Shown piece after piece: positions 11,442-50,041 of a stretch of 64,000 bases of DNA. The translations under genes were made by a program, and so were the position numbers. The notes beneath the pieces were generated by a model. The model ran no database searches and was not told where the DNA came from. It worked only from the letters and a program-made list of their open reading frames with translations. Every line of letters begins with the position of its first letter. Position 1 is the stretch's first letter. Source of the DNA: Tamlana sp. 2_MG-2023 (GTDB taxonomy: Bacteria > Bacteroidota > Bacteroidia > Flavobacteriales > Flavobacteriaceae); assembly GCF_030548465.1 (NCBI RefSeq), contig NZ_JAUOSF010000003.1, positions 62,001 through 126,000 on the forward strand, written 5' to 3'.

Positions 11442-13640
11442 TTAATTTTCTTGTTCTGGCTTTCCTAACAAGTTGAAATCTAAGTGTTTCTTAACTAAAT
11501 CGGTGTTTTTAACTTTTACAACAACTTCATCACCAAGTTGATAGGTCATGCCTGTATTTTTTCCAACCATAGCAAATTGATCTTGATCAAAAGCATAATG
11601 ATCGTCGGTCATATCACGCACACTCACCATACCTTCACATTTATTTGAAATGATTTCTACATAAATTCCCCAATCGGTTACCCCAGAAATTACCCCTACA
11701 AAATTCTCATTTTTATGATCTTCCATAAAACGGATTTGCATGTACTTTATAGAATCTCTTTCAGCACGTGTTGCCAAACCTTCCATATTACTGGAATGAT
11801 TACATTTTTCTTCGTAAACATCTTCATTAGCCGATTTTCCGCCATCCAAATAATGTTGCAATAAACGATGCGCCATCACATCTGGATAACGACGAATAGG
11901 CGATGTAAAATGACTATAGTAATCGAAAGCCAAACCGTAATGCCCGATATTATGGGTGGTATATTCAGCTTTACTCATACTTCTTATCGTTAAAGTATCA
12001 ACTAAATTTTGTTCCTTTTTACCGTTAACTTCCTTCAATAAATGATTCAATGAAGTGGCGGTTGTTTTACGATCTTTAAAATTAAGTTTATAACCAAATT
12101 TTGAAACAATGCCTTGTAAATTCGCTAGTTTACTATCGTCTGGTTCGTCATGAACACGATAAACAAAGGTCTTTTTAGGATCTTGTTTTCCAACAAATTC
12201 TGAAACTTTACGGTTTGCTAAAAGCATAAACTCTTCAATAAGTTTATTCGCATCCATACTGGTTTTAAAGAACACACCAATTGGGTTTGCTTCTTCATCT
12301 AAATTGAATTTGACTTCTACTTTATCAAAAGAAAGAGCACCAGATCGCATGCGTATTCCACGCATGATTTTAGCCAATTCGTCCATTTTTAGAATGGCAT
12401 CAGCTAATTTTTGATCGGTTTTATAAGCTTTTCCTGTTAAAGAGACTTCAGCAGGAATGTCGTTTGTTTTGGATTCTAAAATGGCTTGTGCTTCTTCATA
12501 AGCATAACGTGCATCACTGTAAGTAACCGTTCTACCGAACCACTGATTTTTAATTTCAGCTTTATCATTCATTTGAAACACTGCAGAAAAGGTATATTTT
12601 TCTTCATGAGGACGTAATGAACAAGCGTTATTAGACAGTACTTCTGGTAACATAGGCACCACACGATCTACTAAATACACCGATGTGGCACGCTCGTAAG
12701 CTTCATCGTCTAAAATAGTACCTTCTTGTAAATAATGCGATACATCGGCAATGTGAATACCAATTTCATATAAACCATTATCTAAAACTTCAAAGGATAA
12801 GGCATCATCAAAATCTTTAGCATCTTTAGGATCTATGGTAAAGGTTAAATCCTTTCGCATGTCACGACGTTTGGCAATTTCTTCTTCAGTAATAGAAGTA
12901 TCTAATTGATTTGCAAACTGTTCTACTTCATAAGGAAATTCGTGAGGTAGACCATATTCAGCTAAAATCGCGTGAATCTCAGTATTATGATCACCTGGTT
13001 TCCCAAGTACTTGCACCACTTTTCCGTAAGGTGAATCGGCTTTTTCAGGCCAATCTTCTAGTTTTACTAAAACTTTATCGCCGTCTTCAGCTTTAAAGGT
13101 TTTATTGATAGGTACAAAAATATCTTTGTACATTTTATTACTATCTGCAATTACAAAAGCATATTTTTCATGCAATTGAATCACACCAACATACTCTGAT
13201 TTTGAGCGTTTTATAATATTTGTAATCTCACCTTCTAACTTACCGCGTCTTCTACGTTTGTAAACATAGAATTCTACTTCGTCATCATGTAAGGCTTTAT
13301 TAATATTATTTGAAGCGATAAATACATCATCTTCAAAGTCTTCACAAATAATATAACCATTGCCTTTAGCGGCTAAATCGAGCCTACCGGTATGGTATTC
13401 TGAGTTAATCACGGCTTTAAATTTACCACGTTCTACTTCTTCAATTTCTTGTTTGCCTTGTAAATCGCGTAATTTTTTTATGATTTGATTTCTACTACTG
13501 GCATCGTTTACACCAAGTTTAGCGGCGATTTGCTTGTAGTTGAAAGACTGATTTCTTTCTTTTTTTAAAATACTTAAGATAGTATTTGATAGGTTGGAAA
13601 TCCCTTTATTCTTGGATTTTCCTTTTCTTTTTCTAGTCAT
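11442..13640 (-). CDS. rnr: Ribonuclease R
   Basis: A 732-residue 3'-5' exoribonuclease of the RNB family. The N-terminus is basic with a winged-helix-like segment, followed by cold-shock/OB domains (about 75-240). The RNB catalytic core has D-P-K-D-A-K-D-F-D-D-A-L with its metal-binding Asp cluster, H-I-A-D-V-S-H-Y and S-P-I-R-R-Y-P-D. A C-terminal S1 domain reads F-V-G-V-I-S-G-V-T-D-W-G-I-Y-V. Length and domain order are normal. It degrades structured RNA, including mRNA and rRNA fragments, in the cytoplasm. It flanks the candidate origin region on the left and is transcribed away from it. Confidence 0.96.
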   Translation of the reverse strand: MTRKRKGKSKNKGISNLSNTILSILKKERNQSFNYKQIAAKLGVNDASSRNQIIKKLRDLQGKQEIEEVERGKFKAVINSEYHTGRLDLAAKGNGYIICEDFEDDVFIASNNINKALHDDEVEFYVYKRRRRGKLEGEITNIIKRSKSEYVGVIQLHEKYAFVIADSNKMYKDIFVPINKTFKAEDGDKVLVKLEDWPEKADSPYGKVVQVLGKPGDHNTEIHAILAEYGLPHEFPYEVEQFANQLDTSITEEEIAKRRDMRKDLTFTIDPKDAKDFDDALSFEVLDNGLYEIGIHIADVSHYLQEGTILDDEAYERATSVYLVDRVVPMLPEVLSNNACSLRPHEEKYTFSAVFQMNDKAEIKNQWFGRTVTYSDARYAYEEAQAILESKTNDIPAEVSLTGKAYKTDQKLADAILKMDELAKIMRGIRMRSGALSFDKVEVKFNLDEEANPIGVFFKTSMDANKLIEEFMLLANRKVSEFVGKQDPKKTFVYRVHDEPDDSKLANLQGIVSKFGYKLNFKDRKTTATSLNHLLKEVNGKKEQNLVDTLTIRSMSKAEYTTHNIGHYGLAFDYYSHFTSPIRRYPDVMAHRLLQHYLDGGKSANEDVYEEKCNHSSNMEGLATRAERDSIKYMQIRFMEDHKNENFVGVISGVTDWGIYVEIISNKCEGMVSVRDMTDDHYAFDQDQFAMVGKNTGMTYQLGDEVVVKVKNTDLVKKHLDFNLLGKPEQEN

Positions 13641-13731
13641 TTAATATTGTAATCTTTTCAATTCCTAAGATACAGGAATTGTGTTAGTAAATAGCAGGAA
13701 TTTAGGAGAAGATTTTGCTATTTATTTTATA

Positions 13732-13739
13732 CAAAGCTA
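13732..13739 (-). promoter_or_regulatory. Bacteroidota -7 promoter element for rnr
   Basis: The minus strand reads TAGCTTTG (TAnnTTTG), 91 bases before the rnr ATG at 13640. Confidence 0.4.
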
Positions 13740-14295
13740 CGTTTTTAAAATTAAACGAATATTTCCTTAAGTTTAATTCATATCAAAGTCAATTTTTTAA
13801 ATCGTAATTCAAAAACGAACGACAACTTCCTTTCTCTTCACAATACTCAATTTTTGAAGTTATCCACACTTATATATATATTATTATTTTTCTTTTAAAA
13901 TTTAAAAAAACAATGGTGGTTATTATAGGGTGTTAATAACTGGTATAACTTTTTTAAATTTTATTTTGATGGCTTTAAATTTACAGTTTGTTAATAGGTT
14001 CTTAACAATGTAATTACGATTAATTGTCTAATTTTAAGTCTTTTTCATTTTTATATCCACAGTTGTTAACAACCAAAAACCAGTAGTGTTTATTCATAAG
14101 TTTTTTTAATTTTGTGTTCATAGTGAACAATTTTTAGGCTGATAACATCGCTAAAAAAAATGAATTAAAAATTTGGATTTTAAGTTGCGGTTTTTGATTG
14201 GAAAAATAAATGGATATTCAATATTTTTCTTTTAGAAAGTAATGAACAGTTATTAACAACTCATCCACATTTTAATACACATGGTTAATAATTAC

Positions 14296-14303
14296 TACCT
14301 TTG
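14296..14303 (+). promoter_or_regulatory. Bacteroidota -7 promoter element for rpiB
   Basis: TACCTTTG (TAnnTTTG) lies 28 bases before the ATG at 14331. Confidence 0.5.
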
Positions 14304-14330
14304 TATAACAATACAATATAAGATATACAC

Positions 14331-14765
14331 ATGACAATTTCTATAGGAAACGACCACGCCGGAACAGATTATAAATTTGCAATTAAGGAACTCCTTGAAT
14401 CTAAAGGTTATACCGTAAATAACCATGGTACCGATGCTAATGATAGTGTTGATTACGCCGATTTTGTACACCCCGTAGCAACCGATGTTGTTAATAACAC
14501 CTCTACTTTTGGTATTTTAATTTGCGGAAGCGCCAATGGTGTGGCCATGGCCGCGAACAAGCATCAAAAAATTCGTGCGGGTTTATGTTGGAATAAAGAA
14601 ATTGTACACCTTATAAGAAGTCATAACAACGCGAATATTTTATGTATTCCTGCAAGGTTTACAGCTATTCCACAAGCTTTAGAAATGGTTGAGGTCTTTT
14701 TAAATACAGAATTTGAAGGCGGAAGACATCAAACTAGAATCGATAAAATTCCGGTGTCTTGCTAA
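14331..14765 (+). CDS. rpiB: Ribose-5-phosphate isomerase B
   Basis: A 144-residue RpiB/LacAB-family enzyme that interconverts ribose-5-phosphate and ribulose-5-phosphate in the pentose phosphate pathway. The N-terminus I-S-I-G-N-D-H-A-G carries the phosphate-binding start, and L-I-C-G-S-A-N-G-V-A holds the active-site Cys. N-K-x-x-K-I-R-A-G and H-N-N-A-N-I-L are also conserved. Length is normal. Its stop codon abuts the ATG of the transporter at 14766 with no gap, so the two are translationally linked. Confidence 0.95.
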   Translation: MTISIGNDHAGTDYKFAIKELLESKGYTVNNHGTDANDSVDYADFVHPVATDVVNNTSTFGILICGSANGVAMAANKHQKIRAGLCWNKEIVHLIRSHNNANILCIPARFTAIPQALEMVEVFLNTEFEGGRHQTRIDKIPVSC

Positions 14766-19141: not shown

Positions 19142-20776
19142 TTACCTTAAATAACTTTGATAAGACGTTGAATTGCTCAAAATTTCTGAAGCTTTTTTAA
19201 TTTCAGTATCATGAACCTTATAATAATCATATAAACCTTCTCTGTGCACATAGCATTTCACAATGTCTTCTGTTAGTAATTCTAACAAATAGGCTTTATT
19301 TTCGTCTATAACTTTGTTTTTAGAAGCGTTTAAATGATTAATAAGGGCATTGTATTCTTTTTCAATATCGTCGTTTAAAGCTTCTTTTTTAGAGGTTTCA
19401 AAAGCTTTATTTAGTGCTTTTTCAGTTTCAGTTTCAAAAGAAAAATTATTGGTTTCTAAATAACTTTTGAAGTTTGAAAAATCTTTATCCGTTAAGGTAA
19501 AATTGTTAATATCTTCAATTTTATGATTGTAATAGTAATCTACGGCATAATTGAAAATTAAATCGCTGTCTTGAATAGCCTTTGTAATGGTTGGATTTTT
19601 TGTTGCACCCAGTGCAACATCTGGAAGTACACCACCACCATCAAAAACTTTACGACCATTTTTGGTTTTAAACTCGTGATAATTTTCTTGTTTTACACGA
19701 ACGGCTTCCCCTTTTTCATTTCTATTCCAATAATCTAAAGATTGTATACAGCGTCCGGAAGGTGTATGATACCTCGAAATTGTAATTTTAACCTGCGTGC
19801 CATAAGTAAGTTGTTTTGGTCGTTGTACTAACCCTTTACCAAAACTTCTAGACCCAACAATAACAGCACGATCTAAATCTTGTAAAGCACCCGATACAAT
19901 TTCACTGGCCGAAGCACTAGCGCCATCAATTAAAACTACTAAAGGAATTTCGGTATCTATTGGCTGGTTTTGAGTGATGTAAGTACGATTATACTGTTTT
20001 ACTTTAGATTTTGTGGTTACTACAAGCTGTCCCTTAGGAACAAAAAGATTCACAATTTTAATAGCTTCATTTAGTAATCCACCTGGATTTCCTCTTAAAT
20101 CTAAAATAATTTTTGACGCACCTTGAGCTTTTAAATCACGTAACGCATAGTTCGTTTCTATATAGGCTTTGTTACTAAAACGGCTTAAAACAATGTAACC
20201 TGTTTTATCATTAACCATAGAAAAATGTGGAACCGCTTTTATATCTACTTCGGCACGTTTTATAGTTGCTGTATGTGTTTTTCCTTGGCGTAAATAAGTA
20301 ACCTCTACAGAAGAACCTGAAGTACCTTTTAATAAATCACCAGCATGATCTTTATATCCAGCAACAACAGTATTGCCAATTTTTATGATTTCATCACCAG
20401 GTTTTAAACCAGCTTGGTCAGCAGGATAATCCTTGTAAGGTTCAATAACCAATAATTTATCTTCTAAGGTTTTTATACGAGCACCAATACCTGTATAATC
20501 ACCAGTATTGTTAATACGAGCAGCTTCAACATCTTGCTCGTTCATAAAATTGGTGTATGGATCTAAATCGGCTAACATGCTTTTAATAGCCGTATCCATG
20601 AGTTCACCAGGATTGGTTTCATCCACATAATTCATGTTAAGTTCCTTGAACAGTGTGGTGAAAATTTCAATCTGTTTTGCTATTTCAAAAAAATCATTTT
20701 TAAATGCCGATGTCGTTAAAAACACAACACCAACCATAACTGGAATTATAATTTTTTTATTGAAGATTTTTTTCAT
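19142..20776 (-). CDS. S41 C-terminal processing peptidase
   Basis: A 544-residue serine protease with an N-terminal signal/anchor segment (about 10-25). A PDZ domain lies at about 85-175 (G-I-G-A-R, G-L-K-P-G-D-E-I). The S41 catalytic core has L-D-L-R-G-N-P-G-G and G-A-S-A-S-A-S-E-I; the nucleophile is S289 and the general base K314 in S-F-G-K-G, exactly 25 residues apart as in CtpA. A helical C-terminal region of about 150 residues follows. It should cut periplasmic or envelope proteins from the C-terminus. It starts 8 bases after the rnpA stop, so the two are co-transcribed. Confidence 0.94.
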   Translation of the reverse strand: MKKIFNKKIIIPVMVGVVFLTTSAFKNDFFEIAKQIEIFTTLFKELNMNYVDETNPGELMDTAIKSMLADLDPYTNFMNEQDVEAARINNTGDYTGIGARIKTLEDKLLVIEPYKDYPADQAGLKPGDEIIKIGNTVVAGYKDHAGDLLKGTSGSSVEVTYLRQGKTHTATIKRAEVDIKAVPHFSMVNDKTGYIVLSRFSNKAYIETNYALRDLKAQGASKIILDLRGNPGGLLNEAIKIVNLFVPKGQLVVTTKSKVKQYNRTYITQNQPIDTEIPLVVLIDGASASASEIVSGALQDLDRAVIVGSRSFGKGLVQRPKQLTYGTQVKITISRYHTPSGRCIQSLDYWNRNEKGEAVRVKQENYHEFKTKNGRKVFDGGGVLPDVALGATKNPTITKAIQDSDLIFNYAVDYYYNHKIEDINNFTLTDKDFSNFKSYLETNNFSFETETEKALNKAFETSKKEALNDDIEKEYNALINHLNASKNKVIDENKAYLLELLTEDIVKCYVHREGLYDYYKVHDTEIKKASEILSNSTSYQSYLR

Positions 20777-20784
20777 GTAATAGA

Positions 20785-21162
20785 TTATTTTTCTGAAACC
20801 TGACTTCTAAATTTTTCAAATAGAAGTGTCATACGTTTTTCCAATTTAACATATTCTGGTTTATCTTTACCAATGTACAAAATCATAAACGCATAGGGCT
20901 GACTTAAATTGTTAAAATACGAGGCTTTGTTAAGTCGGTATGATTCACGCATTAAACGCTTTATGCGGTTTCTATCTACAGCCAATTTAAAATAACGTTT
21001 ACTAACCGAAACCCCTGTTTGTGCTGGGATGTTAGTTTCGAAAGTTGTAGGCAAATAAACAAGGCGCAACGGATATGCTATAACAGATTTTCCTTCGGCA
21101 AACAATTGCTCAATAAGTTTTTTGCTTTTAAGTTTTTCTTTTTTATTAAAGGTAAAGCTCAA
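20785..21162 (-). CDS. rnpA: Ribonuclease P protein component
   Basis: A 125-residue basic protein, normal for RnpA. The family signature R-N-R-I-K-R-L-M-R-E-S is present, with F-x-F-x-K-K-E-K-L near the start and V-S-V-S-K-R-Y-F-K. It binds the RNase P RNA and helps mature the 5' ends of tRNAs. It is not next to rpmH here but upstream of the S41 peptidase. Confidence 0.95.
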   Translation of the reverse strand: MSFTFNKKEKLKSKKLIEQLFAEGKSVIAYPLRLVYLPTTFETNIPAQTGVSVSKRYFKLAVDRNRIKRLMRESYRLNKASYFNNLSQPYAFMILYIGKDKPEYVKLEKRMTLLFEKFRSQVSEK

Positions 21163-21181
21163 TTGGTGTGTTTTAAAGGCT

Positions 21182-21189
21182 CAAAGGTA
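21182..21189 (-). promoter_or_regulatory. Bacteroidota -7 promoter element for rnpA
   Basis: The minus strand reads TACCTTTG (TAnnTTTG), 19 bases before the rnpA ATG at 21162. Confidence 0.5.
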
Positions 21190-21277
21190 ATGAAATAAAA
21201 AAGTTGCTTTTACATAATCTGATTTTAGCGCTGAAAAATTTTCAGAAGATTCTTATTCAGTCATAAGTCTTACAAAC

Positions 21278-21304
21278 GTCACTCTGAACTCGTTTCAGGG
21301 TCAC
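21278..21304. repeat. REP-like palindrome
   Basis: GTCACTCTGAA ... TTCAGGGTCAC forms an imperfect palindrome between thiH and rnpA. The CTGAA/TTCAG core recurs at 40485-40510 and 46712-46735, which marks a dispersed repeat family. Confidence 0.6.
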
Positions 21305-21328
21305 ATAAAGATGCTCACATTGAGCTTA

Positions 21329-22456
21329 CTATTCTAAATTTGAATTCACATAACTGCGATCCCAATCTTTCCAAACCACCTCATAACCTTGTGATTGAAT
21401 CATATTTTTGATACTTTCTGTAGAACGCTCATCTGAAATTTCAAACTGCTCTAAAGATTGTGGTTCTACAGCATAACCGCCCGGATTGGTTTTAGATTCG
21501 GCACTTATTGAGGTGATTCCTAATCTGATGATGTTGTTTCTAAAGGTTTCACTTTCGCGTGTAGACATCGATAATTCAACATCTTCATCTAATAAACGGT
21601 AGGCACAAATGAGTTGTACTAAATCAATATCTGTCATTTCTACCTTAGGTTCTACATCGCCTTGGTGCGGACGTAATCTTGGGAATGAAATGGAATATTT
21701 TGTTCTCCAATAGGTTTTTTGAAGGTATTTTAAGTGTAAAGCGGTATAAAAACTATCCACACGCCAATCTTCCAAACCAAATAAAGCCCCTAAACCGATT
21801 TTATGAATACCTGCCTTTCCTAAACGATCTGGCGTATCTAATCGGTAATTAAAATTCGATTTTTTTCCCTTCGGATGATGGACTTTATAGGTCGCTTCAT
21901 GATACGTTTCTTGATAGACTAAAACAGCATATAAACCTTCCGCGATAAGCGTTTCATATTCATCTTGATCTAAGGGTTGAACTTCAATACTTATGTTTGA
22001 AAAATATTTTTTAACCAGTTGAATCGCATGCTTCAAATACGAAACCCCAACGGTTCTATTTGCTTCTCCGGTTACTAACAAAATATGGTCATACCCTAAA
22101 CTTTTAATATGCGCCACTTCTTTTAAAATTTCGGCGTCACTTAAGGTTTTCCTCGGAATTTTGTTCGTCATACTAAATCCGCAATAGGTACATATATTTT
22201 GACATTCATTAGACAAATACATCGGAATATACATCTGAATAGTATTCCCAAAACGCTTTTTAGTCAGCTGATTACTACGTTGCGCCATTTGCTCTAAAAA
22301 AGGCGTCGCTGCTGGGGAAATAAGGACTTTAAAGTCGTTTAATGTTATTTTTTCTTTGGCCAATACTGCTTGAACATCTGCTTTGGTAAACGCATAGATT
22401 TCACGTTCTAGGGTGTCCCAATCGTATGTATTGAATGTATTTTTGAATGTGTTCAT
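21329..22456 (-). CDS. thiH: 2-iminoacetate synthase (thiazole synthesis)
   Basis: A 375-residue radical SAM enzyme that cleaves tyrosine to dehydroglycine for the thiazole ring of thiamine. The 4Fe-4S motif C-x3-C-x2-C is present as C85, C89 and C92 in N-E-C-Q-N-I-C-T-Y-C-G. V-T-G-E-A-N-R, Q-P-L-D and S-F-P-R-L-R-P are also conserved. It is the last gene of the thi operon, 46 bases after thiG. Presence of ThiH rather than ThiO fits an organism able to use an oxygen-sensitive route. Confidence 0.95.
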   Translation of the reverse strand: MNTFKNTFNTYDWDTLEREIYAFTKADVQAVLAKEKITLNDFKVLISPAATPFLEQMAQRSNQLTKKRFGNTIQMYIPMYLSNECQNICTYCGFSMTNKIPRKTLSDAEILKEVAHIKSLGYDHILLVTGEANRTVGVSYLKHAIQLVKKYFSNISIEVQPLDQDEYETLIAEGLYAVLVYQETYHEATYKVHHPKGKKSNFNYRLDTPDRLGKAGIHKIGLGALFGLEDWRVDSFYTALHLKYLQKTYWRTKYSISFPRLRPHQGDVEPKVEMTDIDLVQLICAYRLLDEDVELSMSTRESETFRNNIIRLGITSISAESKTNPGGYAVEPQSLEQFEISDERSTESIKNMIQSQGYEVVWKDWDRSYVNSNLE

Positions 22457-22502
22457 TTATTATGAGTAGTTAAGTAGTTAAGTAGGTAGAGAAGTTAACT
22501 CC

Positions 22503-23282
22503 TTAACTACTGACGTTAAGAAACGAAGTCAACGGACTACTGGCTTCGGCATGTTGTTTTACAGGTGCTAATTTTGCGTTATAAGCCATTCTCCCCGACT
22601 CTACAGCCATTTTGAAGGCTTTACCCATTTCTATTGGATTTTGTGACACGGCTATTGCGGTATTAACCAGAACAGCATCGGCTCCTAATTCCATGGCAAA
22701 AGCGGCGTGTGATGGGGCTCCTATTCCCGCATCAACAATAACTGGTACATTGCTTTGTTCGATGATAATTTCTAAAAAGTCGTTTGTTTTTAACCCTTTA
22801 TTACTACCTATTGGTGCGCCTAAAGGCATCACACATTGTACGCCAACTTCCTCTAAACGCTTACACAGTACAGGATCGGCATGAATGTATGGCATCACTA
22901 CGAAACCTAATTTAACGAGTTCTTCCGCAGCTTTTAAGGTTTCAATGGGGTCGGGTAATAAATATTTTGGATCTGGATGAATTTCTAATTTCACCCAATT
23001 GGTTTTTAAAGCTTCACGTGCTAATTCTGCCGCAAAAACAGCTTCTTTTGCAGTTCGTACACCTGAAGTATTTGGTAATAAATTAATATGATTTTCTTTT
23101 AAATGAACCAGCATATCATCCGATTCGTTGTCCATTTCAACACGTTTTAAAGCCACAGTTACAAGTTCACTTTCTGAAGCTAAAATACTGTCACGCATTA
23201 AACTTGAATTACTAAATTTTCCTGTGCCTGTGAATAATCGTGATGTGAATGTTTTATCGGCTATTTGTAGTGTGTCTTTCAT
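22503..23282 (-). CDS. thiG: Thiazole synthase
   Basis: A 259-residue TIM-barrel enzyme that joins 1-deoxyxylulose-5-phosphate, the ThiS thiocarboxylate and dehydroglycine into thiazole phosphate. [12 protein letters not shown] opens the protein. W-V-K-L-E-I-H-P-D provides the Schiff-base Lys, followed by P-Y-I-H-A-D-P-V and the phosphate-binding [11 protein letters not shown]. Length is normal. The gap to thiE is 25 bases. Confidence 0.95.
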
Positions 23283-23307
23283 TTTGTTTTTTTAGGAGTT
23301 GAAGTAG

Positions 23308-23958
23308 TTAAGAATTTTTTGGTTTCCAAACTTGTTCTTCTAAATCTTCTGAACTTTTTAAGAGTTGTTTAAAGACGTTGATATTATTAAAATTTTTAGT
23401 GATTTCTCTTGAAACGGCTATGCCATGAATACCTGTTGTTAGTAATTCTGGAATATCATCTGTTGTTAGTCCGCCTATGGCAATTATTGGTGTTTCTGTT
23501 TTTAGCGTTTCTATAATTCCTTCGTAACCTTTTAAACCTAAAACGGGACTTAAATTATCCTTGGTTTCTGTAAACCTGAAAGGACCTAAACCGATATAAT
23601 CTACTTTTTTATTGATCAGGTTTTCACAGTCTTCTAGCGTATTGGCTGTCCCGCCAACAATTTGCCATGAATACAATGCTTTTCTTGCTATTGAAGGACA
23701 AGTGTCTGATTTTCCTAAATGAACCCCATCAGCTTTGACTTCTTTTGCAATTTTATAATGGTCGTTTATAATTAACCGTGTTTGATAATGTGACGTAATT
23801 TCTCTGGCTTCTTGTGCGGCTTTTAAAATCTTTTTTTCTGAATAATGCTTCAAACGCAGTTGCACTAATTCGGCTCCAGACTGACAGGCTTTTTGAATGT
23901 TTTCTATGTGCGTCTTCGGCGTTGCGCCTTGTGATATGTAGTGTAATTTTGGGATCAT
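23308..23958 (-). CDS. thiE: Thiamine-phosphate synthase
   Basis: A 216-residue TIM-barrel enzyme that couples HMP pyrophosphate to thiazole phosphate. V-Q-L-R-L-K, I-I-N-D-H-Y, V-H-L-G-K-S-D and I-G-L-G-P-F-R-F-T-E-T-K match the ThiE active-site strands, and I-A-I-G-G-L is the phosphate loop. It is clearly the catalytically complete one of the two ThiE-like proteins in this operon. The C-terminus (about 195-216) is a short charged tail. Confidence 0.92.
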   Translation of the reverse strand: MIPKLHYISQGATPKTHIENIQKACQSGAELVQLRLKHYSEKKILKAAQEAREITSHYQTRLIINDHYKIAKEVKADGVHLGKSDTCPSIARKALYSWQIVGGTANTLEDCENLINKKVDYIGLGPFRFTETKDNLSPVLGLKGYEGIIETLKTETPIIAIGGLTTDDIPELLTTGIHGIAVSREITKNFNNINVFKQLLKSSEDLEEQVWKPKNS

Positions 23959-24011
23959 TTTTTAGGAGTTAAGGTAGTTAAGTAGTTAGAGGAGTTAAAG
24001 TAGGCTAGGAG

Positions 24012-24380
24012 TTAATTATTTATTTTTCTTAAGATGCCTTGGCAATACGCGTTTAACATTTTACTAACTTCTTGAATTAATTCAGTTTGTTTTTTATTGT
24101 TTTCTACATAACCTAAATCTTTTGATAGTATTAAAAAATATCGACATTCTTCTAATGATGCTTGTGAAAAATTATAAAAACGTAGTTTCTCTTTCGGACT
24201 TTTACGTTTATAACCTTCAGCGATATTTGCCGTAATTGACACTGCTGCTCTTCTAAATTGAGAGGTTAATCCGTAAATTTCTTCTCTTGGAGATGCCTTA
24301 CTCATTTTGTAAACCTCTAAAACAAATTGACGACCTTTTTGTTAAACTTTTAAATCTTCAAAACTTTTAGTCATTTCCAT
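24012..24380 (-). pseudogene. Four-helix-bundle (S23/IVS-type) protein gene with in-frame nonsense codon
   Basis: The four-helix-bundle family usually has about 118-122 residues and starts with a Phe-x-Asp-Leu-x-Val-Trp-Gln pattern. Reading from the ATG at 24380 gives M-E-M-T-K-S-F-E-D-L-K-V, then TAA exactly where the conserved Trp belongs, then Q-K-G-R-Q-F-V-L-E-V-Y-K in the same frame. The intact frame would encode 122 residues. Translation could restart at the ATG at 24305, giving 97 residues with helices 2-4 complete (G-L-T-S-Q-F-R-R-A-A-V-S-I-T-A-N-I-A-E-G). It sits between thiD and thiE, unrelated to thiamine synthesis, and is flanked by 12-base inverted repeats. Confidence 0.75.
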
Positions 24381-24424
24381 TATTAATTTTCTTTTTTTGT
24401 ATTCCCTTAACTCCTCTATAGAAA

Positions 24425-25231
24425 TCACCCCGTCGCAACAATCATTTTATGCGTACCTAATAATCCTTTGCTGCTTCGTAAATAGGTTTCAATGTAAATT
24501 TTAGAGTTAATTGCTGCATCCTTTATTGGATAATTAGAAGCGATATTACAAGCCAAGCTAGATGATAAAACACAACCACTACCGTGCTTTTGGTATACCG
24601 TTTTATAGATTGGAAAAATTTCAATAGCACTGGTTCTATCGTAATAAAGCTCATCCCAGCCTTTTAAATCTGAGCGATGTCCACCTTTTAAGTATATTCT
24701 TGTAAATTTTGAAATATGTTCTATCGTTTTCTTAATGTTCAAATTGGGGTATAAACTTTGAATTTCATCATAATTGGGTGTGATAATAAAACACTGTTTC
24801 CAAATTTTATCTAGCATTTCCTGACTTTCTTTATAATGGAAATCGAATCCAGAACTGGCTTTAAAAACGGGATCTAAAACCACTTTAATTCTCGGGTTTA
24901 GCTCGTGTAACTTATCCAAAATTAAGGATAATGTTTTCCAGTTTTCAATGATGCCTATTTTAACTACTGATATTTCAAAACGTTCGAAAAGCGTTTCAAT
25001 TTGCAATAGAATGACTTCTGGCTTTGTCCAAATAGATTGTTTAAAATTAGTGTCATTTTGAATGGTTATCGCGGTGCAAACCGTTAATCCATAAAATCCG
25101 TGGGCTTCGAAGGTTTTCAAATCGGAAGTAATTCCGGCACCTCCAGAAGGGTCATGACCTGCTATACTTAATACATAATTATCAAATAACGAAGGGTAAT
25201 TAGCAGAAGATTTGGTAGAATCTTTTTTCAT
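24425..25231 (-). CDS. thiD: Hydroxymethylpyrimidine (phosphate) kinase
   Basis: A 268-residue ribokinase-fold enzyme that phosphorylates HMP and HMP-phosphate. The N-terminus has A-G-H-D-P-S-G-G-A-G-I and the C-terminal half the catalytic/ATP region K-H-G-S-G-C-V-L-S-S-S-L-A, in place of the usual G-T-G-C-T-L-S-S. V-L-D-P-V-F and I-T-P-N-Y-D-E are also conserved. It is part of the thi operon, although a 258-base gap separates it from the upstream gene. Confidence 0.93.
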   Translation of the reverse strand: MKKDSTKSSANYPSLFDNYVLSIAGHDPSGGAGITSDLKTFEAHGFYGLTVCTAITIQNDTNFKQSIWTKPEVILLQIETLFERFEISVVKIGIIENWKTLSLILDKLHELNPRIKVVLDPVFKASSGFDFHYKESQEMLDKIWKQCFIITPNYDEIQSLYPNLNIKKTIEHISKFTRIYLKGGHRSDLKGWDELYYDRTSAIEIFPIYKTVYQKHGSGCVLSSSLACNIASNYPIKDAAINSKIYIETYLRSSKGLLGTHKMIVATG

Positions 25232-25489
25232 ACTTTAAATTAGTTAAGTTAAATTGATAATAGCAATTCAATTGTAGGATATCGTTAGGGATTTTAAAAA
25301 TACTATAGTGATAACATTGTAGGCCCTCTGGGAGAGAGATATCCTGATAAGGGGTGTGGTTTTAGTTCATGTTTTAATTTTAGTTGATAAATAAATTGAG
25401 CAAAGTTGCGAAAATACATATTTTTATTTTATAATATTCTTACGTGTATGATTTTGTGAGCATTATGAAATACTTTTAACTAATTGTTC

Positions 25490-26077
25490 TTATTTTTGAA
25501 AATTAATTATTGATTTGAAAGTTTCTTTGGGATTTTCACTTTGCCAAATGCCTCCTAAAACACCAACACCTTTATATCCTAATTTTGTAAATTCTGCAAG
25601 GTTTTTTGTTGAAACACCTCCCATTCCTATAATTGTTTTATCAATGTGAGTAACATCAAAACCACGACCTTTATAACCGGTTTTAGAAATGGATGAAAAC
25701 ACCGGACTCAGTAAATGGTAATCGAATTCGAAATAACAACTTTCTATATCCTCAGTCTCATGAAAGGATGAACTTATCGTTTTACCAAACATGTTGAGGT
25801 TTTTAAAATACTGCCCCGGATTATCAATATGGTCGATACGTTTTTGTTCTTGAAAATGAATGCCTTTTAAAGAAAACTCATTAATTAATTCATGAAAATA
25901 ATGCACTACGATTCTATCATGATATTGTTTATCTATCAGATTTAAGTAATTAACATGTTCTTCATAATTTTTGTTGGGTTTCCTTAAATGATAGTATTGC
26001 AAACCTGCTTGAAATAGCTGATGTAGTATTTCAATTTCGTTTGGAATATCATTTTCTGGAGCTATTAGAATGACCAT
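25490..26077 (-). CDS. ThiE/TenI-like protein, degenerate active site
   Basis: A 195-residue TIM-barrel protein of the ThiE/TenI superfamily, paralogous to thiE at 23308. It keeps Y-Y-H-L-R-K-P (strand 2), L-S-P-V-F-S-S-I-S-K (substrate loop) and I-G-M-G-G-V (phosphate loop). The ThiE I-N-D motif is replaced by V-H-Y-F and H-L-G by H-F-Q. It therefore more likely acts like TenI, a thiazole tautomerase, than as a second synthase, but this is inference. It lies between thiC and thiD. Confidence 0.8.
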   Translation of the reverse strand: MVILIAPENDIPNEIEILHQLFQAGLQYYHLRKPNKNYEEHVNYLNLIDKQYHDRIVVHYFHELINEFSLKGIHFQEQKRIDHIDNPGQYFKNLNMFGKTISSSFHETEDIESCYFEFDYHLLSPVFSSISKTGYKGRGFDVTHIDKTIIGMGGVSTKNLAEFTKLGYKGVGVLGGIWQSENPKETFKSIINFQK

Positions 26078-26095
26078 TTTCTTGAGTTAATAATT

Positions 26096-26142
26096 AAAAA
26101 TGAAGAATGAAAAATTAGATACCTTATTCATTCTTCATTTTT
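26096..26142 (-). terminator. Hairpin between thiC and the TenI-like gene, possible attenuator
   Basis: AAAAATGAAGAATGAA (26096-26111) pairs perfectly with 26127-26142. On the minus strand the stem is followed by TTTTTAATTATT. It falls directly after thiC in the middle of the operon, so it may lower expression of the downstream genes or protect the thiC mRNA end. Confidence 0.5.
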
Positions 26143-26156
26143 ACTTTTTCATTTTA

Positions 26157-28034
<1,878 letters not shown>

Positions 28035-28085
28035 TTAATTTCATTTTTGAGCGTATCTAGTTCCCCATTTGGGGGTTAGGGGACT

Positions 28086-28289
28086 TTACCCACCTTGGGT
28101 CGCTTGTATAATTAAAATATTGTCGTTTTCTGAAAAATGTTGGGTCGCCCAAACCTCCTTTGAAATAATAGCGCTGTTTATAGCCACAGCAATACCATTT
28201 TTGGGGGTGTTTAGTTGTTCAAGTAATTGAAGAATGTTGAAGTCTTTAGTGACTTCCATGATGTTCTCGTTAACCCGTATTTTTATCAT
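28086..28289 (-). CDS. thiS: ThiS sulfur-carrier protein
   Basis: A 67-residue ubiquitin-like protein, M-I-K-I-R-V-N to the required C-terminal G-G (A-T-Q-G-G), which becomes a thiocarboxylate and donates sulfur to ThiG. The ATG at 28289 is chosen because it gives the normal ThiS length. An in-frame extension upstream to 28415 would read into the riboswitch leader and is hydrophobic and unrelated. First gene of the operon. Activation needs a ThiF-type adenylyltransferase, which is not found in this window. Confidence 0.92.
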   Translation of the reverse strand: MIKIRVNENIMEVTKDFNILQLLEQLNTPKNGIAVAINSAIISKEVWATQHFSENDNILIIQATQGG

Positions 28290-28417
28290 TTTACAGTACA
28301 TTTTTAATGATGCTGTAAATTTTAAAGGCTTGAGAAATATGACTTTGAAATGAAAAAGTACGCGGAGTACTTTCACGAAAAGGTGTGTAAACACATATTG
28401 CAATGTGCTTTTCAACT

Positions 28418-28489
28418 TTTCCCTTCGACGGTACTAACCGCATCAGGTTCAAAGGGTTTTTCTCAGTTCTACAATTAGAACACCCCTAA
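28418..28489 (-). promoter_or_regulatory. TPP riboswitch (thi box) controlling the thiamine operon
   Basis: The minus strand shows the TPP aptamer in order: GGGGTG, a variable stem, CTGAGA, then A-C-C-C-T-T-T-G-A-A-C-C-T-G-A-T, GGTTAGTACC and GAAGGGAA at the end. These are the hallmark P2/P4/P5 sequences. It lies 128 bases upstream of the thiS ATG; the leader between must contain the expression platform. It should turn the whole operon down when TPP is plentiful. Confidence 0.95.
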
Positions 28490-28693
28490 AGTTTACACTG
28501 CGAAGGTATTAAAAAATAAATAAGGTTTTTAAGGATTGTCGTTTCTTTTTTGTGATTTAGAAATAGTGAGTATACCTATAATACTTTTTTTATATACTTT
28601 GCCATCGCTTTTTGGAAAATGATTAATCATTTTCTGATCCAACAGACTTGAAGTAGTTTTTAAATGAAACAGAAGAAATATAGACTCCTGCAT

Positions 28694-29389
28694 CTAGTTT
28701 TCTAATTTTTTCCAAGTAGTTATTGACCCATTTTTATTTCTAACTGTAAAATATTTTGGTCTTTTTTTATCTATTATTAAAGTATCTATTTGATTTAGTA
28801 TTGGTAATCCTTTTCCAACTTTTTGTAGATATACAGAAATAACATAATTGTAATTTTTATCAATACTTAATTCGTATGGGGAATAACCAATATTAGTCAT
28901 TTTTAACTTTAAAAATGTTTTATCCTTTTTTAGATTTAAAGAAGCAACTCCCTTTTCATTTGCAACGCCACCACCATAACCTTGTTTAGACAAACTATCT
29001 TTATAAAAGACGTTTACATTAGGAACGGGAATACTGTCAAAATCGAAAAACTTAAAATTTAAAGTAATAGTATTTTTATTGTTTGTCCATATTTTAGATA
29101 GATGATATCCTGTTTTTACAGGTTCTGTCTTATTATAGTTGAGAATTAATTTATTGTCTATAAAATTATATTCTCCTTTTCCATGAGCTTCTGTACCCAT
29201 GTCTCCGCCAAAACTATGTACAAATGTGTTGTCAGTTTTTAATGTTATACATGCCCCGTAATCTTTAATTTCATATTCTTCACAGAATTTACCTTTGGAT
29301 TGATTTTGGGCGTATACATTGCAATAAAATAAGCTGATATAAATCAATAGTTTAATCACATTCTGTGTCCTTCGAGCTATGGTTGCCAT
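28694..29389 (-). CDS. Exported protein of unknown function with a C-terminal beta-sandwich-like part
   Basis: A 231-residue protein with a signal peptide ending near V-Y-A-Q; a basic stretch precedes the hydrophobic core. Residues about 110-190 (I-P-V-P-N-V-N-V-F-Y ... N-E-K-G-V-A-S-L-N-L ... N-I-G-Y-S-P-Y-E-L) read like a carboxypeptidase-regulatory-like beta sandwich, a fold common in Bacteroidota surface proteins. The N-terminal half is unknown. It lies between the thi riboswitch and the small gene at 29414, on the same strand as both. Confidence 0.7.
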   Translation of the reverse strand: MATIARRTQNVIKLLIYISLFYCNVYAQNQSKGKFCEEYEIKDYGACITLKTDNTFVHSFGGDMGTEAHGKGEYNFIDNKLILNYNKTEPVKTGYHLSKIWTNNKNTITLNFKFFDFDSIPVPNVNVFYKDSLSKQGYGGGVANEKGVASLNLKKDKTFLKLKMTNIGYSPYELSIDKNYNYVISVYLQKVGKGLPILNQIDTLIIDKKRPKYFTVRNKNGSITTWKKLEN

Positions 29390-29413
29390 CTTATTTTGGT
29401 GAGGTTTCTTTTT

Positions 29414-29530
29414 TTATTGTTGTGGTTTGTATTTTATATATATGGTATCCTCAATATTAGTTTGTGCATGAATTATTGAAAACAGACATATTGCAAAAAG
29501 TATTAATAGGATATTTTCTTTATTGCGCAT
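29414..29530 (-). CDS. Possible 38-residue exported peptide or N-terminal gene remnant
   Basis: From the ATG at 29530 the frame reads M-R-N-K-E-N-I-L-L-I-L-F-A-I-C-L-F, then S-I-I-H-A-Q, then 16 residues ending K-P-Q-Q and TAA. The first 22 residues are a textbook Bacteroidota signal peptide ending A-Q. The mature part would be only 16 residues. Either it is a real short exported peptide, or the 5' stub of a decayed gene. The rest of this 336-base gap holds only the terminator at 29672. Confidence 0.4.
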   Translation of the reverse strand: MRNKENILLILFAICLFSIIHAQTNIEDTIYIKYKPQQ

Positions 29531-29671
29531 CGTTACAATCTTTAGTTAATACATCTATATCTAACTCTACAGTCTCCAACTGTTTTATTTCACTACTTAT
29601 ATAACAAACATACATATAAACTTATACATCTTAAAATGTTATATTATAGTTAGATACAATTAGTTATCCAC

Positions 29672-29701
29672 AAAAAAGCCCTTTTGATAAATCAAAAGGG
29701 C
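29672..29701 (-). terminator. Terminator of the M1 peptidase gene
   Basis: GCCCTTTTGAT and its perfect complement form an 11-base stem around a 2-base AA loop. On the minus strand it is followed by six T. It lies 25 bases after the peptidase stop. Confidence 0.85.
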
Positions 29702-29725
29702 ATATAAAATTTAGAAAAATTATTT

Positions 29726-31561
29726 CTAGTTTTCGTTATTTTCTCTATCGATATCGGCCATCATTTCGTCTGGGTCGATAGTCACGGTTTTCACGGTTTT
29801 TTCAGTTTTAAACGAATAGGTTGGATAAGCCCAAGCCCAGTCGTTTAAGGTTGTTGCTGTGGTTGGTTTTTCACCACGCATCATTTGTAATGGAATGTAA
29901 AAATCTTCAGTAGTACCATCAGTATAAGTTACGGTTAGGTCTATAGGCATTGGCATGAGGCCAATTCGTTCTAAAGTAATACTATTATTTTCAACCAATT
30001 TTACGCCGTAATCAATGGTGTTTGTGGTACGTGTCCAATCGTTTAAATACCAGTCTAATTCTAGTCCTGAAACTTTTTCCGCTACGCGGATAAAATCGTT
30101 ACCGTTAGGGTGTTTAAACGCCCATTTATCAAAATATGCTTTTATGGTTTTTTGCTGATTTTCTTGTCCGATGACATAAGCTAATTGGTTTAAAAACACA
30201 TAACCTTTGTAGTATGCCGAAATTGAAGAAGAACGATTAAAATGAAAACGATCGGCTTGAGTTGTCATTGGTTGTTCAGTTCCAGAATTAGCATAGTATG
30301 AATACACATCGTAAGTCTGTTTGGTATCTTTTTTAAATGATTTACCATTTATTTTGCTTTCTGCTAGTTTTCCAAAGTATTGGGCAAAACCTTCGTCCAT
30401 CCAATAGTTTGTTAGTTCGTTTGTAGCTAATAAAAACTGAAACCAAGTATGTGCTAACTCATGCGATGTTACACCAAATAAACCATCAAAATCACCTTCC
30501 CCTAGAATTAAAGTACACATGGCGTATTCCATGCCGCCATCGCCACCTTGAATCACTGAATATTGATCGTATGGGTATTTTCCAATGTTCTCACTGTAAA
30601 ACTGCATCAATTCAACCGTTTTTGGTTGTAGATTTTTCCAGTTTTCTAACTTGTCGGCCGGCATGGTACTTTTGTATAAAAAGTGCAGCAGCGGTCCATT
30701 AGGCACTTGCATGGTATCGTGCTTGTATTCTGGATCGGCAGCCCATGTAAAATCATGTACGTTAGGCGCCTTAAAATGCCATGTAAGTTTCTCTGATTTT
30801 GGCGTTTTGACAGTTCCTGTTTCATAACCATGACCAACGTCATTAGGGTTTTGTAAATAACCCGTTCCTCCTACTACATAATTTTTATCAATGTTAAGGG
30901 TCACATCAAAATCACCCCAAACACCATGAAATTCACGCCCTATGTAAGGATCGGCATGCCAACCTTCATAGTCGTATTCGGCTAATTTAGGATACCATTG
31001 CGTCATTGATAGGGCAACACCTTCTTTGTTATTTCGTCCAGAACGACGAATTTGAATAGGCACTTGAGCATCAAAAACCATGTCGAAAGTTACACTTTCA
31101 CCGGGCTGAATAGGTTTTGCGAGTTCCACTTCTAAAACGGTACCCACGGTTTCATGGTTAATAGTAACGCCATTTTGTTTAAGTGAATTGACTTTAATAT
31201 AACCAATTTCATTAGGTTTAAGTTTGCCTATACGATCTTTTACTCTAGCATCTGGATCAGGAATATTTTGAGAACGCACGTCCATTTCGCTACCTGGTTG
31301 AAAGGCATTAAAGTATAAATGGTAGAACACCTTGTTTAAAACATCTGGGGAATTATTGGTGTAAACCAGTTTTTGAGTGCCTTTGTATTGATAGGTGTTT
31401 ACATCCATATCAATTTCCATTTTGTAATCTACATGCTGTTGCCAATATGTAGAACAATTTTCAGGTGATGTTGCTGAGGTTTTTGTTGCGGCTGTTTGCT
31501 GTGTTGGTTTACACGAAACCAGTAATGAAACACAGAAAACAGATAAAAGAAAACGATTCAT
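29726..31561 (-). CDS. M1-family metallopeptidase lipoprotein
   Basis: A 611-residue zinc aminopeptidase. The N-terminus is a lipoprotein signal with lipobox L-V-S-C (C17). The exopeptidase motif region is G-G-M-E-Y (342-346), and the zinc motif is H-E-L-A-H with H367, H371 and the third ligand E390 in W-M-D-E-G-F-A-Q. E368 is the catalytic base. It should trim N-terminal residues from peptides, anchored to an envelope membrane. It lies in a minus-strand block with an S8 protease and an MBL hydrolase, but terminator-like hairpins bound it on both sides. Confidence 0.94.
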   Translation of the reverse strand: MNRFLLSVFCVSLLVSCKPTQQTAATKTSATSPENCSTYWQQHVDYKMEIDMDVNTYQYKGTQKLVYTNNSPDVLNKVFYHLYFNAFQPGSEMDVRSQNIPDPDARVKDRIGKLKPNEIGYIKVNSLKQNGVTINHETVGTVLEVELAKPIQPGESVTFDMVFDAQVPIQIRRSGRNNKEGVALSMTQWYPKLAEYDYEGWHADPYIGREFHGVWGDFDVTLNIDKNYVVGGTGYLQNPNDVGHGYETGTVKTPKSEKLTWHFKAPNVHDFTWAADPEYKHDTMQVPNGPLLHFLYKSTMPADKLENWKNLQPKTVELMQFYSENIGKYPYDQYSVIQGGDGGMEYAMCTLILGEGDFDGLFGVTSHELAHTWFQFLLATNELTNYWMDEGFAQYFGKLAESKINGKSFKKDTKQTYDVYSYYANSGTEQPMTTQADRFHFNRSSSISAYYKGYVFLNQLAYVIGQENQQKTIKAYFDKWAFKHPNGNDFIRVAEKVSGLELDWYLNDWTRTTNTIDYGVKLVENNSITLERIGLMPMPIDLTVTYTDGTTEDFYIPLQMMRGEKPTTATTLNDWAWAYPTYSFKTEKTVKTVTIDPDEMMADIDRENNEN

Positions 31562-31591
31562 ATGTAAATTTATTTAGTAGGATTATTTAAA

Positions 31592-31667
31592 TAAAAATGC
31601 CTGTTTGAAAATAATCGGCTGTTTTAAAACAGAACTTTGCAGTTTTTGATTATGTTCAAGCAGGCAT
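31592..31667 (-). terminator. Terminator-like hairpin after the S8 peptidase gene
   Basis: ATGCCTGTTTGA and TCAAGCAGGCAT pair at 11 of 12 positions, with an inner stem CTGTTTTAAAACAG. On the minus strand it runs into TTTTTATTT. It lies 21 bases after the S8 stop. Confidence 0.6.
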
Positions 31668-31687
31668 AAATACTAATTGTTGTAATA

Positions 31688-33298
31688 TTATTTAGCTGCA
31701 GATAATTTTGCAGCCATAATTAATGCGTTATAAGCATTTACCATTTTACCAGATTTTGTTAAATCGGCAAACGGACGAATATCAGAAGTGTTACCTCCAA
31801 CAATAACTTTTCTATTAATCGCTAAACCAGAATCTAAGATTACTGTTTTTACTTGAGCAGCTGTTAAATCTGGATAGTAAGAACGAATTAATGCAGCAAC
31901 ACCAGCAACAGCAGGAGCGGCCATAGATGTACCTCCTTTAGTATCGTATTCGTTTTCTGGAGTTGTTGAGTAAATACTTGCTCCAGGAGCAAATACATCA
32001 ACGTTTTGTTTTCCGTAGTTAGAAAAACCAGCAATCATTTTAGAACCATAAGTCGGAGCTAAGGCGCCTACTCTAATATAAGTATCTGAAATCTCTACAA
32101 AATCTACATTATCATCTGGAAAGTTAGGTGCAGTATCTACATCTTTACTGTCATTTCCTGCAGCATGTACAAAAACCACATTATTTTTAGCAGCATAAGC
32201 AATGGCTTCACGTACCCAATCGGCGTGTGGAGAATAGCTTTTACCAAAACTTCCGTTAATTACTTTAGCACCATTATCTACAGCATAACGAATAGATAAT
32301 GCCACATCTTTATCGTACTCATCACCGTTTGGCACCACTCTAACACTCATTAATTCTACGTTGTTAGCAACACCATTGGCGCCTTTTCCGTTGTTACGTA
32401 CGGCAGCAATAATTCCTGCTACGTGAGTTCCGTGACTTTCAGATTTTTTAACTGGTTTTACGTTGGCATCACCATAATTCGTATCAGTGATATCCTCTGG
32501 ATCATCTCCAGTAACACGTCCTTTTAAATCTTTATTTAAATTAGAATTTAATCGATCATTAATGCTTTCAACACCATTTTTAATTTCTTTTTCAGCATCA
32601 GCTAAAGAATCCATGCCATTGCCATACATGCTCATAGCGATTTGCTTAGCCTTTGCTAAATCTTCATCTTCTGTTTCAAGAGCTTTAACTTCTTCTTTAG
32701 TGTAATCTGCTTTCCCAAAATGTGCAGTTAAAGTTGCATTAGCATCTTTAATCACCCCATATATTTGATCGTAACGCGTTTTATTAGCGGTCCACTTCTT
32801 GTATTCTACTTCATATTCAGCTTCCGCTCTGGCATAATCTTCAGAATTTTTGTCACCACTAACTAAAATTCTAACCATTTCTAATTGTTCGTCGTAACCT
32901 TTACCTAAAAAGTTCCAACCGTGAATATCATCAACATAACCATTTTTATCGTCATCAATGCCGTTTCCAGGAATCTCATCTTCATTGGTCCAAAGAATTT
33001 CATTTAAATCTTCATGATCGATATCAATACCAGAATCAATCACAGCAACAATCACTTTTTTACCTTTTTTATTTTTAATTAATTCCGCGTAAGCGCGATC
33101 AACACTCATCCCAGGAATAGTATCTGTAACCAGGTCTAAATGACCCCAATTATGCGCTTCGGCTTCAGTAAGTTCTGAAACTTTTAAAGGAGAACTATCA
33201 ATATTTTCAACTGGTGTAGATACGATACTTGATCCACCGCAGCCATAAAGTAATACAGCTGCAAAAGCTGAAGTTGCTATTGTTTTAAATGTTTTCAT
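31688..33298 (-). CDS. S8 subtilisin-like serine protease, lipoprotein
   Basis: A 536-residue protein with lipobox L-L-Y-G-C (C20). The catalytic triad is D88 (V-I-D-S-G), H289 (S-H-G-T-H-V-A-G) and S458 (G-G-T-S-M-A-A-P), with N382 as oxyanion residue. The gap of about 200 residues between Asp and His is far longer than in plain subtilisins. It holds a largely helical, charged insert (about 135-285). A role in breakdown of outer proteins for nutrition or processing is likely. It follows the MBL-fold gene by 24 bases and is probably co-transcribed with it. Confidence 0.93.
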   Translation of the reverse strand: MKTFKTIATSAFAAVLLYGCGGSSIVSTPVENIDSSPLKVSELTEAEAHNWGHLDLVTDTIPGMSVDRAYAELIKNKKGKKVIVAVIDSGIDIDHEDLNEILWTNEDEIPGNGIDDDKNGYVDDIHGWNFLGKGYDEQLEMVRILVSGDKNSEDYARAEAEYEVEYKKWTANKTRYDQIYGVIKDANATLTAHFGKADYTKEEVKALETEDEDLAKAKQIAMSMYGNGMDSLADAEKEIKNGVESINDRLNSNLNKDLKGRVTGDDPEDITDTNYGDANVKPVKKSESHGTHVAGIIAAVRNNGKGANGVANNVELMSVRVVPNGDEYDKDVALSIRYAVDNGAKVINGSFGKSYSPHADWVREAIAYAAKNNVVFVHAAGNDSKDVDTAPNFPDDNVDFVEISDTYIRVGALAPTYGSKMIAGFSNYGKQNVDVFAPGASIYSTTPENEYDTKGGTSMAAPAVAGVAALIRSYYPDLTAAQVKTVILDSGLAINRKVIVGGNTSDIRPFADLTKSGKMVNAYNALIMAAKLSAAK

Positions 33299-33322
33299 AG
33301 TTACTTTTTAATTATATATGTG

Positions 33323-34186
33323 TTATTTATTGAATATTTCTGAAGTTGTAAATGTGTCTTTTAATCGAACACCTTTTTCGGTATGTTGCACAGTAATAAT
33401 CTCGTTATGTGCATCGTGTTCTAAAAACAAGTAGAGGTTTTCATCGGCAGCCATGTTTAGAAATTTTTCCTTTTCGTCCATGGTTAATAACGGTCTGGTG
33501 TCGTAGCCCATAACGTATGGGAGAGGCAAATGACCAACAGTAGGCAATAAATCGGCCATAAAAGCAATGGTTTTGTCCTGATATTTTATCATAGGAATCA
33601 TCTGCTTGTCGGTATGTCCGTTAGCAAAAAAGATATCGAAACCTAAAGCTGAATTTTTAAGGATATCGTTTTCTGGAAGTCCTGTAAATTTTAACTGACC
33701 ACTTTCTTCCATAGGAAGGATATTTTCCTTTAAAAAAGAGGCTCTTTCACGGCGGTTAGGCTGCGTAGCCCATTGCCAATGGTCTTCATTGCTCCAAAAA
33801 TGTGCATTTTTAAAAGCGGTTTCGTAACCTGTTCTATCTTTATTCCACTGGATACTTCCACCACAATGATCGAAATGCAAATGTGTTAAAAAAACATCGG
33901 TAATATCATCACGATGAAAACCATATTGTTTTAAAGAACTGTCTAAGCTAAAGTCGCCCCACTGGTAGTAATAACCAAAAAACTTTTCAGATTGTTTGTT
34001 CCCCATACCATTGTCGATTAAAATCAGCCGGTCACCATCTTGAATAAGAAGGCATCTCGCCGTTAAATCAATCATATTATTGGAATCTGAAGGGTTTGTA
34101 CGTTGCCAAATAGATTTTGGAACGACGCCAAACATGGCGCCACCATCAAGTTTAAAATTGCCCGTGTTTATAGGAAATAAGGTCAT
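33323..34186 (-). CDS. MBL-fold metallo-hydrolase
   Basis: A 287-residue metallo-beta-lactamase-fold enzyme. The metal motif is T-H-L-H-F-D-H-C-G-G (H-x-H-x-D-H), with N-G-H-T-D-K later and F-L-E-H-D-A-H near the end as further ligands. No signal peptide is seen. The layout resembles the lactonase/hydrolase branch of the family, but the substrate cannot be told. First gene of a likely two-gene unit with the S8 protease. Confidence 0.9.
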   Translation of the reverse strand: MTLFPINTGNFKLDGGAMFGVVPKSIWQRTNPSDSNNMIDLTARCLLIQDGDRLILIDNGMGNKQSEKFFGYYYQWGDFSLDSSLKQYGFHRDDITDVFLTHLHFDHCGGSIQWNKDRTGYETAFKNAHFWSNEDHWQWATQPNRRERASFLKENILPMEESGQLKFTGLPENDILKNSALGFDIFFANGHTDKQMIPMIKYQDKTIAFMADLLPTVGHLPLPYVMGYDTRPLLTMDEKEKFLNMAADENLYLFLEHDAHNEIITVQHTEKGVRLKDTFTTSEIFNK

Positions 34187-46499: not shown

Positions 46500-46515
46500 T
46501 GAGAATAGTTTTCTG

Positions 46516-46523
46516 CAAAAATA
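46516..46523 (-). promoter_or_regulatory. Bacteroidota -7 promoter element for the DUF2490 gene
   Basis: The minus strand reads TATTTTTG (TAnnTTTG), 16 bases before the ATG at 46499. Confidence 0.4.
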
Positions 46524-46547
46524 AAGGTTATCTACAGAAATACAATT

Positions 46548-46631: not shown

Positions 46632-46642
46632 GAGTTAAAATC

Positions 46643-46693: not shown

Positions 46694-46711
46694 TGTTGTT
46701 TCGTGATGAAA

Positions 46712-50021: not shown

Positions 50022-50041
50022 TTTGTTTTTTTTAATTCAGT

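Follow-up and report, generated by a model that had tools for sequence, protein, structure and literature searches.

A candidate chromosomal replication origin between rnr and rpiB in Tamlana sp. 2_MG-2023 and related Flavobacteriaceae

The window analysed in this work is a 64-kb stretch of DNA, positions 62001-126000 of contig C23, from the draft genome of Tamlana sp. 2_MG-2023 (G000; 4.01 Mb in 45 contigs). It carries the gene rnr, encoding ribonuclease R, and on the opposite strand rpiB, encoding ribose-5-phosphate isomerase B, whose nearest named match is that of Tamlana agarivorans (96%). The two genes diverge from starts at 13640 (minus) and 14331 (plus), and the 690 bp between them (13641-14330) are AT-rich (76.8%) and contain no open reading frame of at least 60 amino acids, in agreement with a preliminary description which had singled out this gap as a possible replication origin. 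Towards both ends of the gap there is a match to TAnnTTTG, which we take to be the Bacteroidota promoter -7 element; of 69 other gaps, 49 have such a match no more than 160 bp from the rnr end, and 49 have one no more than 80 bp from rpiB.

The perfect DnaA box TTATCCACA announced for position 13860 is indeed present on the plus strand (box 1), with the TA run at its side, as are two one-mismatch boxes in the same orientation, ATATCCACA at 14053 and TCATCCACA at 14261. The exact 12-base inverted pair (13931 and 14247) and the perfect 12-base palindrome (14062) agreed letter by letter, so that every feature described was found at its place. The count of three related boxes was right for the boxes named, but it was too low: the relaxed motif NTRTHMACA gives seven sites in the gap, all inside 420 bp, and among these the ones at 13931(-), 13989(-), 14063(+), 14064(-) and 14250(+) have to be added to the array. 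Both the inverted pair and the palindrome are made up of such relaxed sites. Box 1 and the opposing box 2 are 71 bp apart, start to start, in the host genome, and the least stable 60-bp stretch of the gap begins at 13868; 45 of the 63,940 window positions are less stable than this stretch, which ranks third among separate spots. Inspection of a nine-gap alignment by eye found no consistent DnaA-trio next to a box.

Table 1. Features of the candidate origin region (window coordinates).
Feature	Position	Strand	Basis or remark
oriC candidate gap	13641..14330		core ~13860-14269; skew switch, box cluster, family conservation
rnr, ribonuclease R	11442..13640	-	NCBIfam TIGR02063, over cut-off
rpiB, ribose-5-phosphate isomerase B	14331..14765	+	NCBIfam NF004051, over cut-off
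TAGCTTTG, TAnnTTTG match	13732..13739	-	probable rnr promoter, outside box core
Box 1, TTATCCACA	13860..13868	+	perfect canonical DnaA box
AT-rich spacer between opposed boxes, candidate DNA unwinding element	13869..13930		low stability; interval length conserved
Box 2, TTATTAACA, facing box 1	13931..13939	-	relaxed motif; homologous site in relatives
Conserved element GGTATAACTTTTTTAAATTTTATTTTGAT beside box 2	13942..13970	+	alignment of relatives' gaps
Relaxed box CTATTAACA	13989..13997	-	relaxed motif; alignment
Relaxed box ATATCCACA	14053..14061	+	relaxed motif; alignment
Palindrome GTTGTTAACAAC, two overlapping opposed boxes TTGTTAACA (14063 +, 14064 -)	14062..14073		recurs in relatives
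Relaxed box TTATTAACA	14250..14258	+	~80 bp before rpiB in many relatives
One-mismatch box TCATCCACA	14261..14269	+	not covered by NTRTHMACA
TACCTTTG, TAnnTTTG match	14296..14303	+	probable rpiB promoter, outside box core

The view that three boxes in so short a gap are rare by chance was borne out by dinucleotide shuffling of the gap, in which 4 of 2000 shuffles reached at least three sites with up to one mismatch, 18 of 2000 contained a perfect box and none of the 2000 combined both. In 320 contiguous kb of the contig, equal to 8% of the host genome and holding 113 such sites, the gap is the one place where three of them fall inside 420 bp. The perfect nonamer TTATCCACA has 34 copies genome-wide, 17 per strand, and for this reason a single copy tells little and it is the cluster that counts. 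With the relaxed motif the gap has seven sites, the runner-up of 109 ORF-free segments in the same 320 kb having three. In nine of nine related genomes the rnr-rpiB gap holds the densest 450-bp cluster of relaxed sites in the 100 kb, a result which is not independent of the motif, since NTRTHMACA was derived from 18 gaps of which nine come from these same genomes.

An independent set was formed by 52 named gaps (L108, whose contig is as long as that of G005, being left out), on which the motif, fixed beforehand as NTRT[CTA][CA]ACA, gave 339 sites against a mean of 49.4 in 100 shuffles (maximum 66), with at least four relaxed sites in 49 of the 52. In these gaps the reversed motif, too, occurs about twice as often as in the shuffles (106 sites against 48.6), so that part of the relaxed-site excess may be due to composition or palindromes. 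Canonical boxes alone, with up to one mismatch, were discarded as the conserved signal, the gap being no clear top cluster by this measure in five genomes (G005, G007, G012, G014 and G018). In G004 canonical boxes are more densely clustered at a place 14 kb away on the rnr side, which was set aside as it lies inside an ORF of 693 amino acids.

The divergent arrangement of rnr and rpiB is found in 20 of the 24 family genomes with rpiB (in two of the other four, G020 and G022, the contigs end nearby), and in none of 13 genomes outside the family. Among 80 named loci rnr is divergent at 70, and at 53 the gap does not exceed 1.6 kb; left out of the counts on named gaps were 17 loci with a gap above 1.6 kb and 10 without rnr upstream. 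ORFs of 600, 317, 628 and 441 amino acids are located between rnr and rpiB in G002, G003, G007 and G008, respectively, and therefore genes can insert beside the predicted origin.

A k-mer comparison of 18 family gaps, from which the long, ORF-containing gaps of G007 and G008 were excluded, recovered TATTAACA/TGTTAATA in 17 and TTATCCACA in 10. The nine-gap alignment delimits a conserved core of approximately 400 bp with a constant layout, namely a box, an AT-rich spacer, an opposing box about 72 bp further and then the element GGTATAACTTTT. At the position of box 1, in the 31 gaps out of 70 examined that had a clear anchor (up to five mismatches), the nonamer is TTATCCACA in 22, TTATTCACA in four, TTATCAACA in two, and TTATAAACA, TTATTAACA and TTTTCAACA in one each, while box 2 is mostly NTATTAACA and at times CTATTCACA or CTATCAACA. 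As different nonamers swap at one homologous position, they would be forms of one binding site, and the exchanged nonamers at box 1 are probably a single site class relaxed at two middle bases.

Box 2 and TATAACTTTT together were searched for, without any use of synteny, as the composite TGTTNATAN{3,6}TATAACTTTT. It matched 33 times, in 32 of 120 family genomes, as against 20 matches in 15 genomes for the reversed control. The exact composite is missing from the other 88, and the element is thus a variable one. Of 30 composite loci returned, 27 have rpiB and 28 have rpiB or rnr in their 1.5-kb flanks, and in 28 of the 30 a box-1-like nonamer precedes box 2 by 70-73 bp. Conservation of the boxes in relatives, one of the checks proposed at the outset, thus holds for the array, its spacing and its context but not for the exact TTATCCACA, which is present in only 23 of the 52 independent named gaps. 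What the family conserves is a wider site class and not the exact TTATCCACA.

A minimum of the cumulative GC skew at the gap had been a further expectation. When 100 kb from each of nine related genomes were aligned on rpiB and pooled, the minimum fell 818 bp before rpiB, and leaving out one genome at a time moved it between -490 and -827. Minima of the single genomes are scattered around the rpiB start, the extremes being 1.2 kb towards rnr and 19.7 kb in the rpiB direction: three of the nine lie on the rnr side at no more than 1.3 kb, the other six on the rpiB side at 6.9-19.7 kb. When these genomes are divided into 5-kb bins, the skew is negative in 95 of the 99 bins on the rnr side; the 72 bins on the rpiB side comprise 53 positive ones, 18 negative ones and one of zero. 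On the host contig, where the gap is at 75.6-76.3 kb, the 10-kb bins are negative at 1-80 kb (8 of 8), near zero at 80-120 kb and positive in 19 of 20 at 120-320 kb; this stretch of about 40 kb with a skew near zero accounts for the six single-genome minima on the rpiB side. Within the window, at 19142-34186 and 45801-61029, ORFs of at least 150 amino acids are mostly on the minus strand, against the direction of a rightward fork, and the skew is near zero.

On the scale of whole chromosomes, G004, a single-contig genome of the same genus with rpiB at 1.4816 Mb, was sampled in 20 stretches of 20 kb. The skew is negative in 8 of the 9 stretches before 1.48 Mb, positive in all 10 between 1.48 and 3.62 Mb, and negative again at 3.9 Mb. 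G019, a member of another genus, has rpiB at 911 kb and its sign change at 870-890 kb, 20-40 kb from rpiB on the rpiB side; its far switch falls at 2.8-3.1 Mb, roughly half a chromosome off.

The gap is not close to dnaA, which is carried by contig C1 of the host genome and located at 25-1419 in G004, with rpiB at 1.48 Mb; an origin adjacent to dnaA was accordingly rejected for both genomes. In G004 the DnaA model also gave weak AAA+ matches at 15 places; these may be IS21-type helper ATPases, and the genome may be rich in one insertion sequence. The DnaA protein of the host is complete, and its domain IV matches that of E. coli DnaA (1j1v, E 3e-18), with RDHATV as the recognition helix where 1j1v has RDHTTV. 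The residue that differs, at the position of E. coli Thr435, is alanine in 10, serine in 16 and threonine in one of the 27 Bacteroidota DnaA loci that were readable, out of 33, six having no match to the regular expression. Two of the 10 loci with alanine come from outside the order, so that the alanine is not confined to the family and serves only as a lead; as such it could explain the relaxed middle bases. A literature search on DnaA contact residues gave no match.

Because the skew of the relatives turns at the gap and a conserved array of initiator-binding-type sites is found there, we interpret the region between rnr and rpiB as oriC of the main chromosome, with a probability of about 0.9 on sequence evidence. 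The proposal of the preliminary description is thereby supported by the skew turn and by the array of DnaA-box-like sites. Points that count against it are the six displaced single-genome minima, the offset switch of G019, the many family genomes in which the exact composite is missing, the matches of the reversed composite and motif, and the overlap between the gaps that yielded the motif and the nine genomes.

Automated origin calls in Flavobacteriaceae sit beside dnaA or mnmG. Ori-Finder 2022, which weights lineage indicator genes and uses TTATCCACA as default box, put oriC beside mnmG in Mariniflexile litorale (PMC11278836) and in Algorimicrobium (PMC12843772), a placement said to fit the GC skew. 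One of these two papers contradicts itself, as its text gives mnmG as oriC and leuB as ter and its Figure 3 legend the reverse. The published origins are likewise away from dnaA and in the same chromosomal neighbourhood as ours, which differs in lying 17-43 kb off, between rnr and rpiB, as judged by pooled skew and conserved sites. The negative arm on the rnr side contains mnmG in the nine genomes, 17-43 kb away from rpiB, and at this distance an origin adjacent to mnmG was dismissed. In G003 there are two mnmG copies of equal score near a contig end (C26:305425-307272 and 308680-310527), possibly an assembly duplicate. That the true origin is nevertheless beside mnmG (gidA), with the gap as a secondary DnaA cluster, would fit these two reports and the presence of mnmG in the same neighbourhood in 12 of 12 genomes searched, but we give it very little chance: the bins from mnmG to the gap are negative almost throughout in the nine genomes, the cumulative curve at mnmG stands far above its lowest point in all nine, which are other genomes than the two published, and 0-3 sites of either motif occur within 2 kb of mnmG. 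The published origins placed at mnmG are likely misplaced. It is also very unlikely that the skew switch is merely a rough marker and initiation takes place at another site, up to some 20 kb away in the direction of rpiB. The six displaced single-genome minima and the switch of G019 on that same side speak for it; they are opposed by the stability of the pooled minimum when single genomes are left out and by the position of the densest relaxed-box cluster, and the many minus-strand genes on the rpiB side may dilute the skew.

The remaining alternatives accept the sites and assign them another role. As the gap is a divergent intergenic region, its sites could serve the transcription of rnr and rpiB, through a shared regulator or through DnaA as a transcription factor, and sites of the TTATTAACA type could bind another factor. 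We nonetheless regard this as hardly probable, since the putative TAnnTTTG promoters flank the box core without entering it, the core of about 400 bp keeps fixed spacings, the cluster is retained in some relatives despite long ORFs between the two genes, as in G007 with its ORF of 628 amino acids, and the skew switch would be left unexplained. A box cluster near oriC could also titrate DnaA, the gap being then a non-initiating reservoir such as datA or DARS; with no equally dense cluster of relaxed boxes elsewhere in the 100 kb of any of the nine genomes and the skew turning at the gap's own cluster, this is extremely improbable.

If the gap is oriC, DnaA encoded far off on another contig would bind the two opposed boxes on either side of the 62-bp AT-rich spacer, box 1 at 13860 and box 2 at 13931, and would spread from there onto 13989, 14053, 14063/14064, 14250 and 14261. 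We infer that all nonamer forms would be bound. The DnaA oligomer would melt the spacer, helicase loading would follow, and two forks would move apart, the left one running in the direction of rnr transcription and the right one in that of rpiB and the genes after it.

The predicted origin resembles oriC of E. coli and B. subtilis in being AT-rich and intergenic, with a cluster of DnaA-box-like sites that includes a perfect TTATCCACA, and in having an AT-rich stretch of low stability beside box 1 at the skew switch. It differs from them in that the gap is not adjacent to dnaA, most of its sites are TTATTAACA-like rather than TTATCCACA, and the gap holds the conserved element GGTATAACTTTT. The origin predicted for Elizabethkingia meningoseptica (PMC8994065) is similar in being a region of 649 bp, with three boxes of up to one mismatch, at a distance from dnaA. 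A literature search, with DoriC and most subscription journals outside its scope, recognised no paper on an origin between rnr and rpiB. The origin proposed here is ordinary in kind; what is new is its exact place, its conserved layout and a likely relaxed box.

To our knowledge, origins of the Bacteroidota have rarely been tested, and the conserved candidate of 400 bp offers a precise place to test initiation. The gap would also provide the correct zero point for methods which derive growth rate from coverage. More tentatively, and with rather less than even confidence, we suggest that in the Flavobacteriaceae at least the origin may follow a relaxed box code, NTRT[CTA][CA]ACA, in which TTATTAACA and CTATTAACA are the most frequent forms, with box 1, AT-rich spacer, opposed box 2 and GGTATAACTTTT in a fixed layout and an alanine to match in the recognition helix of DnaA (RDHATV in place of RDHTTV or RDHSTV); because of this relaxed code, finders that combine TTATCCACA with indicator genes would misplace the origin. 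In this family DnaA and its box may have changed together.
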